This document shows positions 7,265 through 12,285 of a stretch of 34,230 nucleotides of DNA, piece by piece. The stretch's first letter is position 1. Each line of letters starts with the position of its first letter. Position numbers and translations under genes: made by a program. This DNA is from Oscillospiraceae bacterium. Its GTDB lineage: Bacteria > Bacillota > Clostridia > Oscillospirales > Ruminococcaceae. The stretch covers positions 1 through 34,230 of the forward strand of contig JAFQTW010000042.1 of assembly GCA_017408855.1 (NCBI GenBank). The letters are read 5' to 3'. The notes below the pieces were generated by a model that was not told the origin of the DNA, did no database searches, and was given only the letters and a program-made list of their open reading frames with translations.

Positions 7265-7353
7265 CACGGGCAATGCGGAGCATCTCCGCTCCAACGAGCG
7301 AGTATAATGCGCGTACCGCTCCTGCTGCAATCCCTTAAGACTGGGCGAGGGGC
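7265..7353 (-). repeat. Single repeat unit (minus orientation)
   Basis: The reverse complement shares GCCCAGTCTTAAG, GCAGGAGCGGTACGCGCATT and TTGGAGCGGAGATGCTCCGC with the array at 10996-11290. It sits directly behind the aldolase gene. Confidence 0.9.
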
Positions 7354-8136: not shown

Positions 8137-8170
8137 GAAAAGGCTTTGGGAATTTCCCAAAGCCTTTTTT
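8137..8170. terminator. Bidirectional terminator between queT and yjbQ
   Basis: A perfect 12-bp stem AGGCTTTGGGAA/TTCCCAAAGCCT flanked by A- and T-runs on the two sides. It ends queT on the plus strand and the pfkB-amidohydrolase-yjbQ operon on the minus strand. Confidence 0.93.
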
Positions 8171-8180
8171 GATGGACCGA

Positions 8181-8612
8181 TTATTCTTCGCCCATTACGG
8201 TGATGTAGATCTTGCGGCGCTGGATGCCGTCGAACTCGCCAAAGTAAACGTCCTGGGCGTTGCCGCACAGAGGCATACCGTCAACGATGGGGAATACGGC
8301 GTGGTTGCCGCAGATCATGGATTTCAGGTGACCGGGCGTGTTGCATCCGATGGCACCGTAAGAGGGCAAAAAGTGGTTGTGGTTGTAGGAAGCGAAGGTG
8401 GGGACCAGCTCTTCCAGTTTGTTCTCGATGTCAACCTCGAGGCAAGCAAGGCTCTCATTGACCAGAATACCGGTGGTGGTGTGGGCGGTGATGATGTACA
8501 CGATGCCGTTTTTCACGCCGGAATTTTTGACCGCTTCCAGAACCTGCGGGGTGATACGGATCAGTTCAAATTCTTTTTTGCTGATCACTTCGATGGTGGT
8601 CGTCTTTACCAT
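8181..8612 (-). CDS. YjbQ family protein (UPF0047), distal copy
   Basis: A 143-residue YjbQ/UPF0047 protein. The family motifs are present: TAHTTTGILVNE (42-53, with H44), GHLKS (94-98, with H95), and QDVYFGEFDGIQRRKIYITV-type C-terminus. The conserved histidines and the glutamate are thought to form a metal or catalytic site. Some members show thiamine-phosphate synthase side activity; the true role is unsettled. It is 97% identical to the copy at 9563-9994, differing only at residues 9, 37, 111 and 135. It is the last gene of the operon, 2 nt behind an amidohydrolase. Confidence 0.9.
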   Translation of the reverse strand: MVKTTTIEVISKKEFELIRITPQVLEAVKNSGVKNGIVYIITAHTTTGILVNESLACLEVDIENKLEELVPTFASYNHNHFLPSYGAIGCNTPGHLKSMICGNHAVFPIVDGMPLCGNAQDVYFGEFDGIQRRKIYITVMGEE

Positions 8613-8614
8613 AA

Positions 8615-9526
8615 CTATTTAACCTCCATTCCCAGCCATTTGATGGCGTTGCCGCCCATCAGTTTTTTGCGGGTGTCGTCGCGCATCTCCAGTTTGTCCA
8701 GACCCTGCATCACGCGCTGGGTACGGTGACGGGGGCTGTTGGAACCGAACATGACTTTGTCAGCAAAGTTCTGCTCGAACCAGGTGGGACCCCAGGTGTG
8801 GTTGAAGATCTTGTCCATAAAGATGTAGGGAGAATCCATGGGCACGCAGGAAGTATCGGTGTAGATGTTGGGATACTTCAGGCAGAGCATGGCAGTCTCG
8901 GTGGCCCAGGGCCATCCGAAGTGTGCCAGACACATACGCAGCTCGGGATATTTTACCGCTACCTCTTCAAAGTTGATGGGCTCCGCGTATTTGATCAGAC
9001 AGTCGGGATCCCAGCTCATGCCGGCGTGGAACATGATGGGCTTGTTGTATTTGATACACAGCTCATAGATGGGGTCCATCATCGGGTCGGCAGGGTAGAA
9101 TGCCTGTTTGGAGGGGTTCAGCTTCAGACCGGACAGCTTCTGGTTTTTGAATGCGTGCTCCAGAACCTCCAGCGCGTCGGGACGGCGGGGGTCGATGGAA
9201 GCAAAGCCGATAAAGCGGTCGGGATGTGCGTTGACGATCTGCTCGATCTCGTCGTTGGAAACGATCCAGCCGCCGTGGGTGGTGGTCAGATCCAGCGGCA
9301 TCAGAACCAGACGGTCAAAGCCAAAGGAGTCCATCTGGGTGAAAGTGACCTCGAAGTTGCGTTTGCCGCCGCCGTTACCGCCGGAAGGTTTGCCGGTCAT
9401 GGCGATGGGCGCAGCCAGAGCAGCCTCGCGGCGGCGCTGGAACACGCGGTCGCGGAAATCATCTGCTTCGGGGCTGTGGTCTACATAAGGATACCCTGTG
9501 GGGTGAACATGAACATCGATTACCAT
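8615..9526 (-). CDS. Amidohydrolase family 2 protein, distal copy
   Basis: A 303-residue TIM-barrel protein of the metal-dependent amidohydrolase 2 (Amidohydro_2) family, which includes decarboxylases and lactonases. The metal motif DVHVH (H6, H8), FHAG (H167) and CLAHFG (H202) are present. Two usual residues are altered. The loop GLKLHP reads GLKLNP (N137), and the final catalytic aspartate (FGSD-P) is asparagine (FGSNSP, N263). The proximal paralog keeps the first histidine but has the same asparagine. A glycine-rich loop (SGGNGGGKR, 48-56) is shared. It lies 2 nt from yjbQ, and its own yjbQ partner follows. The substrate is unknown. Confidence 0.85.
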   Translation of the reverse strand: MVIDVHVHPTGYPYVDHSPEADDFRDRVFQRRREAALAAPIAMTGKPSGGNGGGKRNFEVTFTQMDSFGFDRLVLMPLDLTTTHGGWIVSNDEIEQIVNAHPDRFIGFASIDPRRPDALEVLEHAFKNQKLSGLKLNPSKQAFYPADPMMDPIYELCIKYNKPIMFHAGMSWDPDCLIKYAEPINFEEVAVKYPELRMCLAHFGWPWATETAMLCLKYPNIYTDTSCVPMDSPYIFMDKIFNHTWGPTWFEQNFADKVMFGSNSPRHRTQRVMQGLDKLEMRDDTRKKLMGGNAIKWLGMEVK

Positions 9527-9562
9527 AAGTATAAACTCCTTTTGCTATTGCGATAAGTTAAA

Positions 9563-9994
9563 TTATTCCTCGCCCATTACGGTGATGTACACCTTGCGGC
9601 GCTGGATGCCGTCGAACTCGCCAAAGTAAACGTCCTGGGCGTTGCCGCACAGAGGCATACCGTTAACGATGGGGAATACGGCGTGGTTGCCGCAGATCAT
9701 GGACTTGAGATGTCCGGGGGTGTTGCATCCGATGGCGCCGTAAGAGGGCAAAAAGTGGTTGTGGTTGTAGGAAGCGAAGGTGGGGACCAGTTCTTCCAGC
9801 TTGTTCTCGATATCAACTTCGAGACAGGCAAGGCTCTCGTTGACCAGAATACCGGTGGTGGTGTGGGCGGTGATGATGTAAACCATACCGTTTTTCACGC
9901 CGGAATTTTTGACCGCTTCCAGAACCTGCGGGGTGATACGGATCAGTTCAAATTCTTTTTTGCTGATCAGTTCAATGGTGGTCGTTTTTACCAT
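9563..9994 (-). CDS. YjbQ family protein (UPF0047), proximal copy
   Basis: A 143-residue UPF0047 protein, nearly identical to the copy at 8181-8612. All motif residues (H44, E53, H95, E126) are intact in both. It begins 3 nt behind an amidohydrolase, and a second amidohydrolase-YjbQ pair follows 36 nt downstream. The near identity means a recent duplication, or gene conversion that keeps the copies alike. The nucleotide differences are few and mostly at third positions. Confidence 0.9.
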   Translation of the reverse strand: MVKTTTIELISKKEFELIRITPQVLEAVKNSGVKNGMVYIITAHTTTGILVNESLACLEVDIENKLEELVPTFASYNHNHFLPSYGAIGCNTPGHLKSMICGNHAVFPIVNGMPLCGNAQDVYFGEFDGIQRRKVYITVMGEE

Positions 9995-9997
9995 AGC

Positions 9998-10915
9998 TTA
10001 TTTCTCCTCCATTCCCAGCCATTTCAGTGCGTTGCCGCCCATCAGTTTTTTGCGGGTCTCCGGACGCATTTCCAGTCTTTCGATGCCCTTGGTGTGGTTA
10101 CGGGGGCTGTTGGAACCGTACATGACTTTGTCGGCAAAGTTCTGCTCAAACCAGGTGGGTCCCCAAACGTCGGTAAAGATGTGACGGTAGAAGATCTCGG
10201 GCGAGTCCATGGGAACGATGGAAGTATCGGTGTAGATGTTGGGATACTTCAGGCAGAGCATGGCAGTTTCGGTAGCCCAGGGCCATCCGAAGTGTGCCAG
10301 ACACATACGCAGCTGCGGGTATTTTACCGCAACCGGCTCAAAGTTGATGGGACGGGAATACTTGATCAGGCAGTCAGGCTCCCAGCTCATGCCGGCGTGG
10401 AACATGATGGGTTTGTTGTATTTGATACACATCTCATAGATGGGGTCCATCATGGGATCGTCGGGATAGAAAGCCTGTTTGGAAGGATGCAGCTTGAGGC
10501 CGGCCAGTTTCAGATCTTTAAAGGCATGCTCCAGCACTTCCAGCGCGTCGGGACGGTAGGGGTCTACCGAAGCGAAGCCGATAAAGCGGTCGGGTGCGTA
10601 GTCTACGATCTGTTTGACCTCTTCGTTGTTTGCGATCCAGCCGCCGTAACGGGTGGTCAGATCGAGGGGAAGAAGAACCATTTTGTCGGGACCGCCGTTA
10701 TCCATGCGGGTAAAGGTAACCGCAAAGCGCTCTTCGATCGAAGCACCGCCGCGGCTGCCGCCGTTGCCGCCGGAAGGTTTACCGGTCATGGCGATAGGGG
10801 CGGAAAGGGCATCTTCTCTGCGGCGCTGATAAACACGGTCGCGGAAATCTCTTGCCTCGGGGCTGTTGTCAACAAAGGGGAACCCACCGGCGTGAACATG
10901 AACATCAATTACCAT
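9998..10915 (-). CDS. Amidohydrolase family 2 protein, proximal copy
   Basis: A 305-residue amidohydrolase 2 TIM barrel. It has DVHVH (H6, H8), GLKLHPSKQ (K141, H143), FHAG (H173), CLAHFG (H208) and YGSNSP near the C-terminus. The last motif normally carries the catalytic aspartate but has N269 here. It is closely related to the copy at 8615-9526, with the main differences in residues 9-75 and 270-280. AAAGGAGA precedes the ATG. The gene follows pfkB on the same strand, separated by three repeat units. With its YjbQ partner it forms the duplicated unit of this operon. Hydrolysis or decarboxylation of an unknown carboxylated or amidated compound is only a family-level guess. Confidence 0.85.
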   Translation of the reverse strand: MVIDVHVHAGGFPFVDNSPEARDFRDRVYQRRREDALSAPIAMTGKPSGGNGGSRGGASIEERFAVTFTRMDNGGPDKMVLLPLDLTTRYGGWIANNEEVKQIVDYAPDRFIGFASVDPYRPDALEVLEHAFKDLKLAGLKLHPSKQAFYPDDPMMDPIYEMCIKYNKPIMFHAGMSWEPDCLIKYSRPINFEPVAVKYPQLRMCLAHFGWPWATETAMLCLKYPNIYTDTSIVPMDSPEIFYRHIFTDVWGPTWFEQNFADKVMYGSNSPRNHTKGIERLEMRPETRKKLMGGNALKWLGMEEK

Positions 10916-10995
10916 AAAAATTAGTCTCCTTTTTCATGTGTTGTTCTGTTGGATGATTGCGGGGGGATCAAAAATGTATGGAGTGCTGGCGAACC

Positions 10996-11290
10996 GCGCC
11001 CAGTCTTAAGAGACTGCGGCAGGAGCGGTACGCGCATTGCAGCGGATCGTTGGAGCGGAGATGCTCCGCATTGGCTGCCCGACCTTCGGGCCGGCGCCCC
11101 GCGCCCAGTCTTAAGAGACTGTGGCAGGAGCGGTACGAGCATTGTGCCGGATGGTTGGAGCGGAGATGCTCCGCAAAGCCTCCGGCGGCTCGCCGGCGCC
11201 CAGTCTTAAGGGACTGTGGCAGGTGCGGTACGAGCATTGTGCCGGATGGTTGGAGCGGAGATGCTCCGCAAAGCCTCCGGCGGCTCGCCG
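10996..11290 (+). repeat. Three tandem ~95-105-bp palindromic repeat units
   Basis: Units lie at 10996-11100, 11101-11195 and 11196-11290. Each contains GCGCCCAGTCTTAAG, a GGCAGG-GCGGTACG core and GCGGAGATGCTCCGC. The small palindromes CAGTC-TTAAGA-GACTG, GCGGAG-ATG-CTCCGC and CCGGCG-GCT-CGCCGG sit inside. Unit 1 ends differently, with CCCGACCTTCGGG. The array begins 80 bp upstream of the amidohydrolase start and ends directly at the pfkB stop codon. It is found inside a transcribed region, so it would be read as a chain of hairpins in the mRNA. Confidence 0.93.
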
Positions 11291-11291
11291 G

Positions 11292-12086
11292 TTAGTACGG
11301 ATCGAACATGGCAACGACTTCTGCGGACAGGTCGGCGCCTTCTTTCAGACATTCGGGGATGGAGTAGCCGTTCATGATGCCGTACATAAAGCCTGCGCAG
11401 AAGCTGTCGCCGGCGCCTACGGTGTTCACGACTTCTTTGGCGGGAGTGATCTCACCGCTGTAAAACTCTTTGCCGTCGTAGCACAGAGAACCTTCTTCAC
11501 CAAAGGTGGCGATGACCATCTTCGGACCCAGTGCCTGGTATTCTTTCATCAGCTCTTTGACCCGCTCGTCGCGCTGGGGATAGCTCATGAAAGCATAGTC
11601 GATATTTTTCAGCAGCTCTTTGGTCTCGGGACGGCGCTCGTAAGAGGTGGACAGATCGAAAATGATCTGACAGCCTGCTTCCTGCAGCTCGGCCAGATAA
11701 GGATAGAGCACGCGGGAGAACTCGGTGTGAACAAAGTCAAAGCCTTTGAGGAACTCAATATCGTCACGGGTCAGCTCCCAGTCAGCCATAACGCCCTGAA
11801 TGTTCTTTACGTGAACACGGTCGTTGTTCTCGGTCATCTCCATGACCATAAAGGAAGTTTCGCCGGGCAGAACATGCAGATGGGAGGAGTCCATGTTGTA
11901 TTTTTTCAGTACCTCAAACATCTCTTCGCCGTATTTGTCAGGACCTACTGCACTGACAACGGCGCACTCAACGCCCCGTTTGGCCAGATTGACCAGTGCG
12001 TCAAATCCGTTGCCGGCGGGATAGTGGCGGTTGTCCAGGTTGGCATAGTTGTCAACACAGGTAAAACCAGCGGTTGCGATTTTCAT
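11292..12086 (-). CDS. PfkB family sugar kinase, fructoselysine-6-kinase (FrlD)-like
   Basis: A 264-residue ribokinase-fold kinase. The C-terminal signature NTVGAGDSFCAGF (221-233) holds the catalytic base D227 and the anion hole. The N-terminal substrate loop has GN (25-26), and VGPDKYG (47-53) follows. Several strings match what I recall of E. coli FrlD: DSSHLHV, NDRV (88-91), GVMADW (98-103) and the S-Y-PQ-DE region (168-174). FrlD phosphorylates fructoselysine for the FrlB deglycase. No frlB is present in the window, so the true substrate may be another glycated amine. It heads a minus-strand operon with its own promoter. A CCCTCCT complement gives a strong ribosome binding site. Confidence 0.8.
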   Translation of the reverse strand: MKIATAGFTCVDNYANLDNRHYPAGNGFDALVNLAKRGVECAVVSAVGPDKYGEEMFEVLKKYNMDSSHLHVLPGETSFMVMEMTENNDRVHVKNIQGVMADWELTRDDIEFLKGFDFVHTEFSRVLYPYLAELQEAGCQIIFDLSTSYERRPETKELLKNIDYAFMSYPQRDERVKELMKEYQALGPKMVIATFGEEGSLCYDGKEFYSGEITPAKEVVNTVGAGDSFCAGFMYGIMNGYSIPECLKEGADLSAEVVAMFDPY

Positions 12087-12142: not shown

Positions 12143-12171
12143 ATCTTATCATAGTACCAAAAATATGACAA
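12143..12171 (-). promoter_or_regulatory. Promoter of the pfkB-amidohydrolase-yjbQ operon
   Basis: Minus-strand TTGTCA, a 17-bp spacer, then TAAGAT preceded by TG. It is about 57 bp upstream of the pfkB start codon. Confidence 0.75.
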
Positions 12172-12203: not shown

Positions 12204-12285
12204 TTCGGCATATTAACCGAACTATTGTATGAATATAGCAGGATCCTGCTATGGGTTTGATACCTATTTTTCGAGTTGTATCAAA
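12204..12285. promoter_or_regulatory. Three inverted repeats upstream of the pfkB promoter (candidate operators)
   Basis: TTCGG/CCGAA occurs at 12204-12221. ATAGCAGGATCCTGCTAT at 12235-12252 is a perfect 18-bp palindrome. TTTGATAC (12256-12263) and GTATCAAA (12278-12285) form an 8-bp inverted repeat. They lie 30-120 bp upstream of the -35 element, as expected for activator or looping-repressor sites. No regulator gene is next to the operon. The rest of 12087-12385 holds the pfkB promoter and a terminator, and no gene. Confidence 0.6.

Follow-up and report, generated by a model that had tools for sequence, protein, structure and literature searches.

An amidohydrolase–YjbQ gene pair that travels with its own clade of FrlD-family kinases in an Oscillospiraceae operon and its relatives

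We analysed a 34,230-nt stretch of DNA (hereafter, the window; positions 1 to 34,230 of contig JAFQTW010000042.1, assembly GCA_017408855.1) from an Oscillospiraceae bacterium, and in it an operon of five minus-strand genes. From the promoter side, these encode a PfkB-family kinase, an amidohydrolase family 2 protein (AH), a YjbQ (UPF0047) protein, and second copies of AH and YjbQ (Table 1). Across genomes, kinase, AH and YjbQ form a recurring unit, which often lies inside fructosamine clusters. We read this unit, with moderate confidence, as a dedicated catabolic module that would process a phosphorylated ketosamine or ketose and whose AH–YjbQ pair has been duplicated in the operon. The preliminary description of the window was accurate on the positions and strand of the five open reading frames and on their families, which we confirmed using Pfam and NCBIfam models: the two AH copies scored 108.4 and 112.5 bits to PF04909 (Pfam cut-off 26.4), and the two YjbQ copies scored 102.7 and 103.3 bits to TIGR00149 (cut-off 67.75) and 103 bits to PF01894 (cut-off 27).

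The strongest evidence for a functional unit comes from the distribution of the pair. We scanned 84,980 species genomes and obtained 30 loci with an AH relative. YjbQ lay directly downstream and on the same strand in all 45 AH-subfamily genes with downstream sequence, a count that is not fully independent because some loci represent the same genome from two collections. The gaps between the two genes ranged from −32 to +35 bp; three further members of the subfamily, cut by contig ends, are outside the 45. Carriers are bacteria of gut and soil from the Oscillospirales, the Lachnospiraceae and the Paenibacillaceae (Ammoniphilus and Cohnella among them), and beyond the 45 genes the pair also occurs on a Bacillaceae megaplasmid (Niallia) and an Enterococcus faecium plasmid. 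Within the window's bacterial family, AH was present in 17 of 298 sampled genomes, including all five of the window's genus. Three distant AH proteins (L028, L091 and L092; 144–164 bits), which we counted outside the subfamily, have no adjoining YjbQ. The search for the pair in other genomes that had been proposed as a check thus found the pairing to recur, and this strict adjacency indicates that AH and YjbQ almost certainly act together, as had been suggested from the two copies in the window. Mere local duplication as the source of the pairing is ruled out by its recurrence in several bacterial families. Our literature search found no paper naming both YjbQ and an amidohydrolase, and the titles and abstract openings of papers naming YjbQ or UPF0047 held nothing on its role. 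On E. faecium DO plasmid 2 (L269 11370–12411), an AH–YjbQ–permease–GntR–frlD–GntR–SIS cluster adjoins IS1216, with an annotated AH that is shortened; neither a linked-clade kinase nor FrlC was found at this cluster.

The kinase had been described as FrlD-like. This held insofar as it falls inside the tree of the FrlD family and does not cluster with an unrelated, non-Amadori kinase; however, it sits in a separate clade with changed substrate-site motifs, and its score to the curated FrlD equivalog NF007321 is 243.5 bits, below the cut-off of 247. Kinases beside AH–YjbQ (hereafter, linked kinases) carry [TA]GNxxD, NTVGAGD and a C-terminal PY or PW; other FrlD-type kinases have GGNxxN or a near variant of it, DTMGAGD, and GAW or GAF. 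E. coli FrlD has GGNxxN and DTMGAGD in common with most of the kinases that accompany SIS deglycases; the window kinase has neither motif. In a tree built without these motif columns, with TagK-like kinases as the outgroup, the 34 linked kinases formed one clade (support 100/98) that was present in all 200 bootstrap trees and nested among the GGN-type kinases, with E. coli FrlD as a weakly supported sister (93/72). An FrlD-like kinase was in view for 37 AH genes, and in 36 of these cases the closest such kinase belonged to this clade; this includes every locus with both kinds of kinase in view, and the sole exception is a contig fragment. NF007321 itself does not separate the two clades, since it scores members of both above its cut-off (for example, 351 bits for L078 of the linked clade). 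By motifs and tree together, the window kinase represents a specialised side branch of the FrlD family whose members accompany AH–YjbQ. Three further FrlD-like kinases are encoded on contigs C133 and C138 of the same genome.

The clusters that hold the module contain FrlC (452 bits, cut-off 305), a SIS deglycase, and an amino-acid permease or ABC transporter. In two genera (g9 and g26), the order GntR – linked kinase – FrlC – AH – YjbQ – amino-acid permease – GntR is followed by a second FrlD – GntR – esterase – SIS – BtpA – HAD – FGGY. Two genomes, G081 and G114, lack AH, YjbQ and the linked kinase altogether and keep the permease, second FrlD, SIS and FrlC, and comparison with their relatives shows that the three genes come and go together. 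In Paenibacillaceae, the neighbours are amino-acid or sugar ABC transporters, up to five FrlC-like epimerases and SIS proteins, and at some loci asparaginase-, aspartase-, malic-enzyme- and HyuA/HyuB-like genes, the latter named from sequence starts rather than profiles. These neighbours suggest the breakdown of a phosphorylated sugar or sugar-amine, in keeping with the phosphorylated sugar-type substrate proposed earlier; that the substrate is an Amadori compound is what we infer. L083 and L087 place AH–YjbQ next to a tagatose-kinase-like PfkB together with a PFL-like glycyl-radical enzyme, where the pair would serve another class of substrate; L087 additionally has an activase-like radical SAM protein and a LacI regulator.

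We found no FrlA, FrlB or FrlC in the window and no regulator adjoining the operon, and the operon itself contains neither an FrlB/FraB-type SIS deglycase nor a transporter gene. The lack of FrlB noted in the preliminary description holds for the window; elsewhere in the genome, contig C31 (L094 6843–8992) carries tandem FrlB-like SIS genes beside M20 peptidases (66 and 64 bits, cut-off 430). The different route suggested there does not follow from this lack: in many relatives a SIS deglycase lies within the same cluster, and the window's own genome encodes one on another contig.

YjbQ is not confined to this module. We detected it in 10 of 14 control genomes and in 83 of the 298 genomes of the window's bacterial family, with up to ten copies each. 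Among 73 further YjbQ stretches read in that family, with partner families checked against Pfam and NCBIfam, there were three settings without AH: YjbQ alone, with a SIS protein, or with a homologue of triose-phosphate isomerase (TPI). The SIS–YjbQ arrangement occurred at 14 loci, mostly as SIS–YjbQ–SIS–YjbQ, with a PfkB gene nearby in about nine of them. As in the window, the enzyme–YjbQ pair is thus often tandemly duplicated and accompanied by a PfkB kinase, but the partner is a SIS-domain protein unrelated to the amidohydrolase, and the YjbQ belongs to another clade, without the LxxYG loop. Partner type changed five times on the YjbQ tree compared to 62 times in shuffles, on a tree of few columns whose deep branching is unsure. 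Separately, plasmids of Enterococcus faecium and Lacticaseibacillus paracasei (L270 and L272) carry the order phosphotransferase system – YjbQ – (SIS) – RPE – HxlB, with SIS in one case.

The candidate catalytic residues of YjbQ (His44, His78, His95, Glu126 and Asp128 in copy 1) are kept in all types, with Glu126 replaced by Asp in the TPI type. The LxxYG loop is exclusive to the AH type, which has Ala119 where stand-alone YjbQ proteins have Trp. Taken together, the kinase and isomerase partners and the residues conserved across types point to a single chemical step that YjbQ may perform in several phosphosugar pathways, with AH occupying the isomerase slot. In a structure search, the YjbQ model gave good matches to known YjbQ structures only (Z 17–22; 22.3 for 1vph), and no fold outside YjbQ matched convincingly. 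Of the metal ligands in the AH subfamily, H6, H8 and H208 are invariant and H173 is kept in most members. The Asp at the end of strand 8 is the catalytic base in characterised hydrolases and decarboxylases. Among 40 AH members, 33 have Asn at this position, 4 have Asp and 3 have Gly; both window copies have Asn (GSNSPR). Standard hydrolysis via Asp is thus unlikely in most members. The AlphaFold model of AH copy 1 (pLDDT 85) matched best to 3irs (BB4693; Z 26.1 over 255 residues, root-mean-square deviation 2.7), followed by ACMSD, LigJ and LigW. BB4693, an uncharacterised amidohydrolase-2 protein (PDB 3irs/3k4w), is the closest solved relative in fold and sequence, at ∼20% identity, and like most AH proteins it lacks the strand-8 Asp (GTAYP).

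In the mechanism that we favour, the linked kinase would phosphorylate a ketosamine (Amadori-type) or a closely related ketose, so that the compound handed to AH and YjbQ is probably a ketosamine or ketose phosphate. AH, in the slot that SIS or TPI-like isomerases take beside other YjbQ proteins, would isomerise, deglycate or cleave this product. In all such modules, YjbQ would catalyse one and the same small step on an open-chain or cyclic sugar phosphate (ring opening, anomer exchange or Schiff-base hydrolysis, for example), and an ordinary sugar phosphate would be released. A bolder form, in which AH and YjbQ are a SIS-independent pair dismantling the phosphorylated ketosamine that the linked kinases make, with YjbQ as a general sugar-phosphate enzyme (such as a ring-opening or anomer-exchanging partner) serving several unrelated isomerases, seems to us possible but rather unlikely. 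Several observations weigh against the favoured mechanism. About half of the other YjbQ genes stand alone, with no kinase or isomerase adjoining, and the Niallia kinase reads TGNSVN, so the Asp of [TA]GNxxD is not absolute. Among characterised proteins, the folds nearest to AH are those of decarboxylases and a hydratase (ACMSD, LigW and LigJ) rather than isomerases. Many Paenibacillus clusters hold AH–YjbQ together with SIS and a single linked kinase (L011 and L018), which means that AH–YjbQ is not a simple substitute for the deglycase. No fructosamine genes are in view around AH–YjbQ in G115 and G674, where the pair adjoins a tagatose-kinase-like PfkB and a glycyl-radical enzyme. As a separate candidate, strict replacement of FrlB by AH–YjbQ is ruled out by the several clusters that carry SIS, AH and YjbQ with one kinase.

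The co-occurrence with SIS could also reflect plain fructosamine catabolism with a repair branch, in which the kinase makes 6-phospho-fructosamines, an FrlB-like SIS protein encoded elsewhere deglycates them, and AH–YjbQ only clears a side product that is toxic or a metabolic dead end, for instance a lactone or a rearranged phosphate. SIS genes in the same cluster at eight loci (L008, L011, L016, L018, L021, L023, L024 and L026) and the pair on contig C31 would fit such a scheme, as would the toxic build-up of 6-phosphofructose-aspartate in Salmonella fraB mutants reported in PMC4941530. We nevertheless find it doubtful, since AH–YjbQ is accompanied by a kinase clade of its own and losses affect both at once, which resembles a branch of a pathway more than a repair function, and since G115 and G674 have AH–YjbQ, yet the only FrlB-like SIS found in either genome is of GlmS length. 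In another proposal, the kinase phosphorylates a non-Amadori substrate (for example a ketose, sugar acid or lactone) and AH is a lactonase, hydratase or decarboxylase. The same two genomes, with their tagatose/KDG-kinase-like PfkB and glycyl-radical enzyme, would fit it. The changed substrate-site motifs of the linked kinases and the nearest AH folds, namely BB4693 and the three enzymes named above, are in line with this proposal. Against it, the recurrent FrlC, SIS and amino-acid transporter genes and the FrlD-derived kinase point to amine-linked sugars, and we consider it improbable to a similar degree. Finally, TIGR00149 bears the name ‘secondary thiamine-phosphate synthase enzyme’, from which one could take YjbQ for a thiamine-phosphate synthase and tie the operon to vitamin supply. 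No thiamine gene was recognised at the annotated AH-, SIS- and TPI-linked YjbQ loci, where the genes that could be recognised nearby encode sugar kinases, isomerases and transporters, and up to ten paralogues per genome misfit a single vitamin step; we regard this option as very remote.

The duplication itself, which had been reported earlier, could be followed in three genomes. In the window, the YjbQ copies differ at 4 of 143 residues (139 identical) and agree at 409 of 432 nucleotides, and the AH proteins are 79% identical. Within each of the three genomes, the YjbQ copies are 95–99.6% identical in DNA, a value that falls to 80–83% when the window genome is compared with either of the others; the AH copies within a genome are 79–85% identical in protein and no closer to each other than to their positional counterparts in other genomes. 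Gene conversion or selection maintains uniform YjbQ copies in genomes whose AH copies move apart, a pattern suggestive of two related substrates with one YjbQ step common to both.

The shared promoter and terminator proposed earlier were supported by alignment and by the 3′ end of the operon: the promoter is kept as TTGACA-17-TAAGAT in four relatives, and the hairpin at 8168–8138 is the only terminator-like one at that end. Upstream of the promoter, the position of the dyad TTTGATAC...GTATCAAA is occupied by GGAACC...GGTTCC in relatives, a change that looks like that of a compensated operator. A perfect palindrome, ATAGCAGGATCCTGCTAT, also lies above the promoter (region 12235–12285). The gap between the kinase and AH copy 1 measures 376 bp in the window and 52–73 bp in relatives because three copies of a dispersed ∼95-bp repeat are inserted there, and the 380-nt kinase–AH gap folds far better than shuffled sequences (z −5.5). 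This hairpin-containing repeat has 25 matches in its own genome, is absent from the short gap of the relatives, and has further sites in the window at 1–290 and 7274–7347; its tandem copies interrupt the operon in the window genome only, and it is by these comparisons no part of the conserved module. An Rfam scan of the window returned two tRNAs and nothing else.

Table 1. Features of the operon in the window and loci of other YjbQ arrangements
Feature	Position or loci	Strand	Basis
PfkB-family kinase, AH–YjbQ-linked clade	11292..12086	-	PF00294 104 bits; AGNGFD, NTVGAGD, C-terminal FDPY
Amidohydrolase family 2 protein (AH), copy 1	9998..10915	-	PF04909; HxH, H173 and H208 kept; strand-8 GSNSPR
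YjbQ (UPF0047), copy 1	9563..9994	-	PF01894; TIGR00149 102.7 bits; AH-associated type, LxxYG loop
Amidohydrolase family 2 protein (AH), copy 2	8615..9526	-	PF04909; 79% identical to copy 1
YjbQ (UPF0047), copy 2	8181..8612	-	97% (protein) and 95% (DNA) identical to copy 1
Sigma-70-type promoter TTGTCA-17-TAAGAT, before kinase	12143..12171	-	Consensus and alignment with relatives
Operator-like dyad TTTGATAC-N14-GTATCAAA, upstream of promoter	12256..12285		Sequence and alignment
Intrinsic-terminator-like hairpin after last YjbQ	8138..8168	-	14-bp stem and T-rich tail; consensus match only
Dispersed G+C-rich repeat (∼95 bp), three copies, in the gap from kinase to AH copy 1	10996..11290		
SIS–YjbQ loci	L196-L200, L207, L209, L211, L213, L218, L222, L223, L239, L243		
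YjbQ beside archaeal-type triose-phosphate isomerase homologue, often with FGGY kinase	L201, L202, L204-L206, L217, L237, L242		

Among known systems, the E. coli frl operon (frlABCD-frlR) has a kinase of the same PfkB family, and where the window operon has relatives, AH–YjbQ adjoins FrlC, an amino-acid permease, GntR regulators and SIS enzymes. However, frl has no AH or YjbQ, whereas the window has no FrlA, FrlB, FrlC or adjoining regulator and its kinase falls in a separate clade. The Salmonella fra operon for fructose-asparagine shares the logic of a sugar-amine kinase, a deglycase and an asparaginase, and some Paenibacillaceae module clusters also hold asparaginase-like or aspartase-like genes. 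To our knowledge, fra includes neither AH nor YjbQ. The abstracts of PMC4072780 and PMC4941530 likewise do not place either protein in this operon, and for the fructoselysine operon of Intestinimonas a kinase, a deglycase and an ABC transporter are named and no amidohydrolase (PMC4697335).

The ‘fructoselysine 6-kinase’ model spans two kinase clades with different partners, and gut-metagenome surveys based on frlD only may therefore count a different pathway. YjbQ/UPF0047 is very widespread and is named in public databases only after a secondary thiamine activity; the ties of several YjbQ clades to sugar kinases and phosphosugar isomerases now offer a concrete enzyme test for it. If YjbQ were indeed a general sugar-phosphate enzyme, the function of a family whose members range from archaea to E. 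coli would be resolved.

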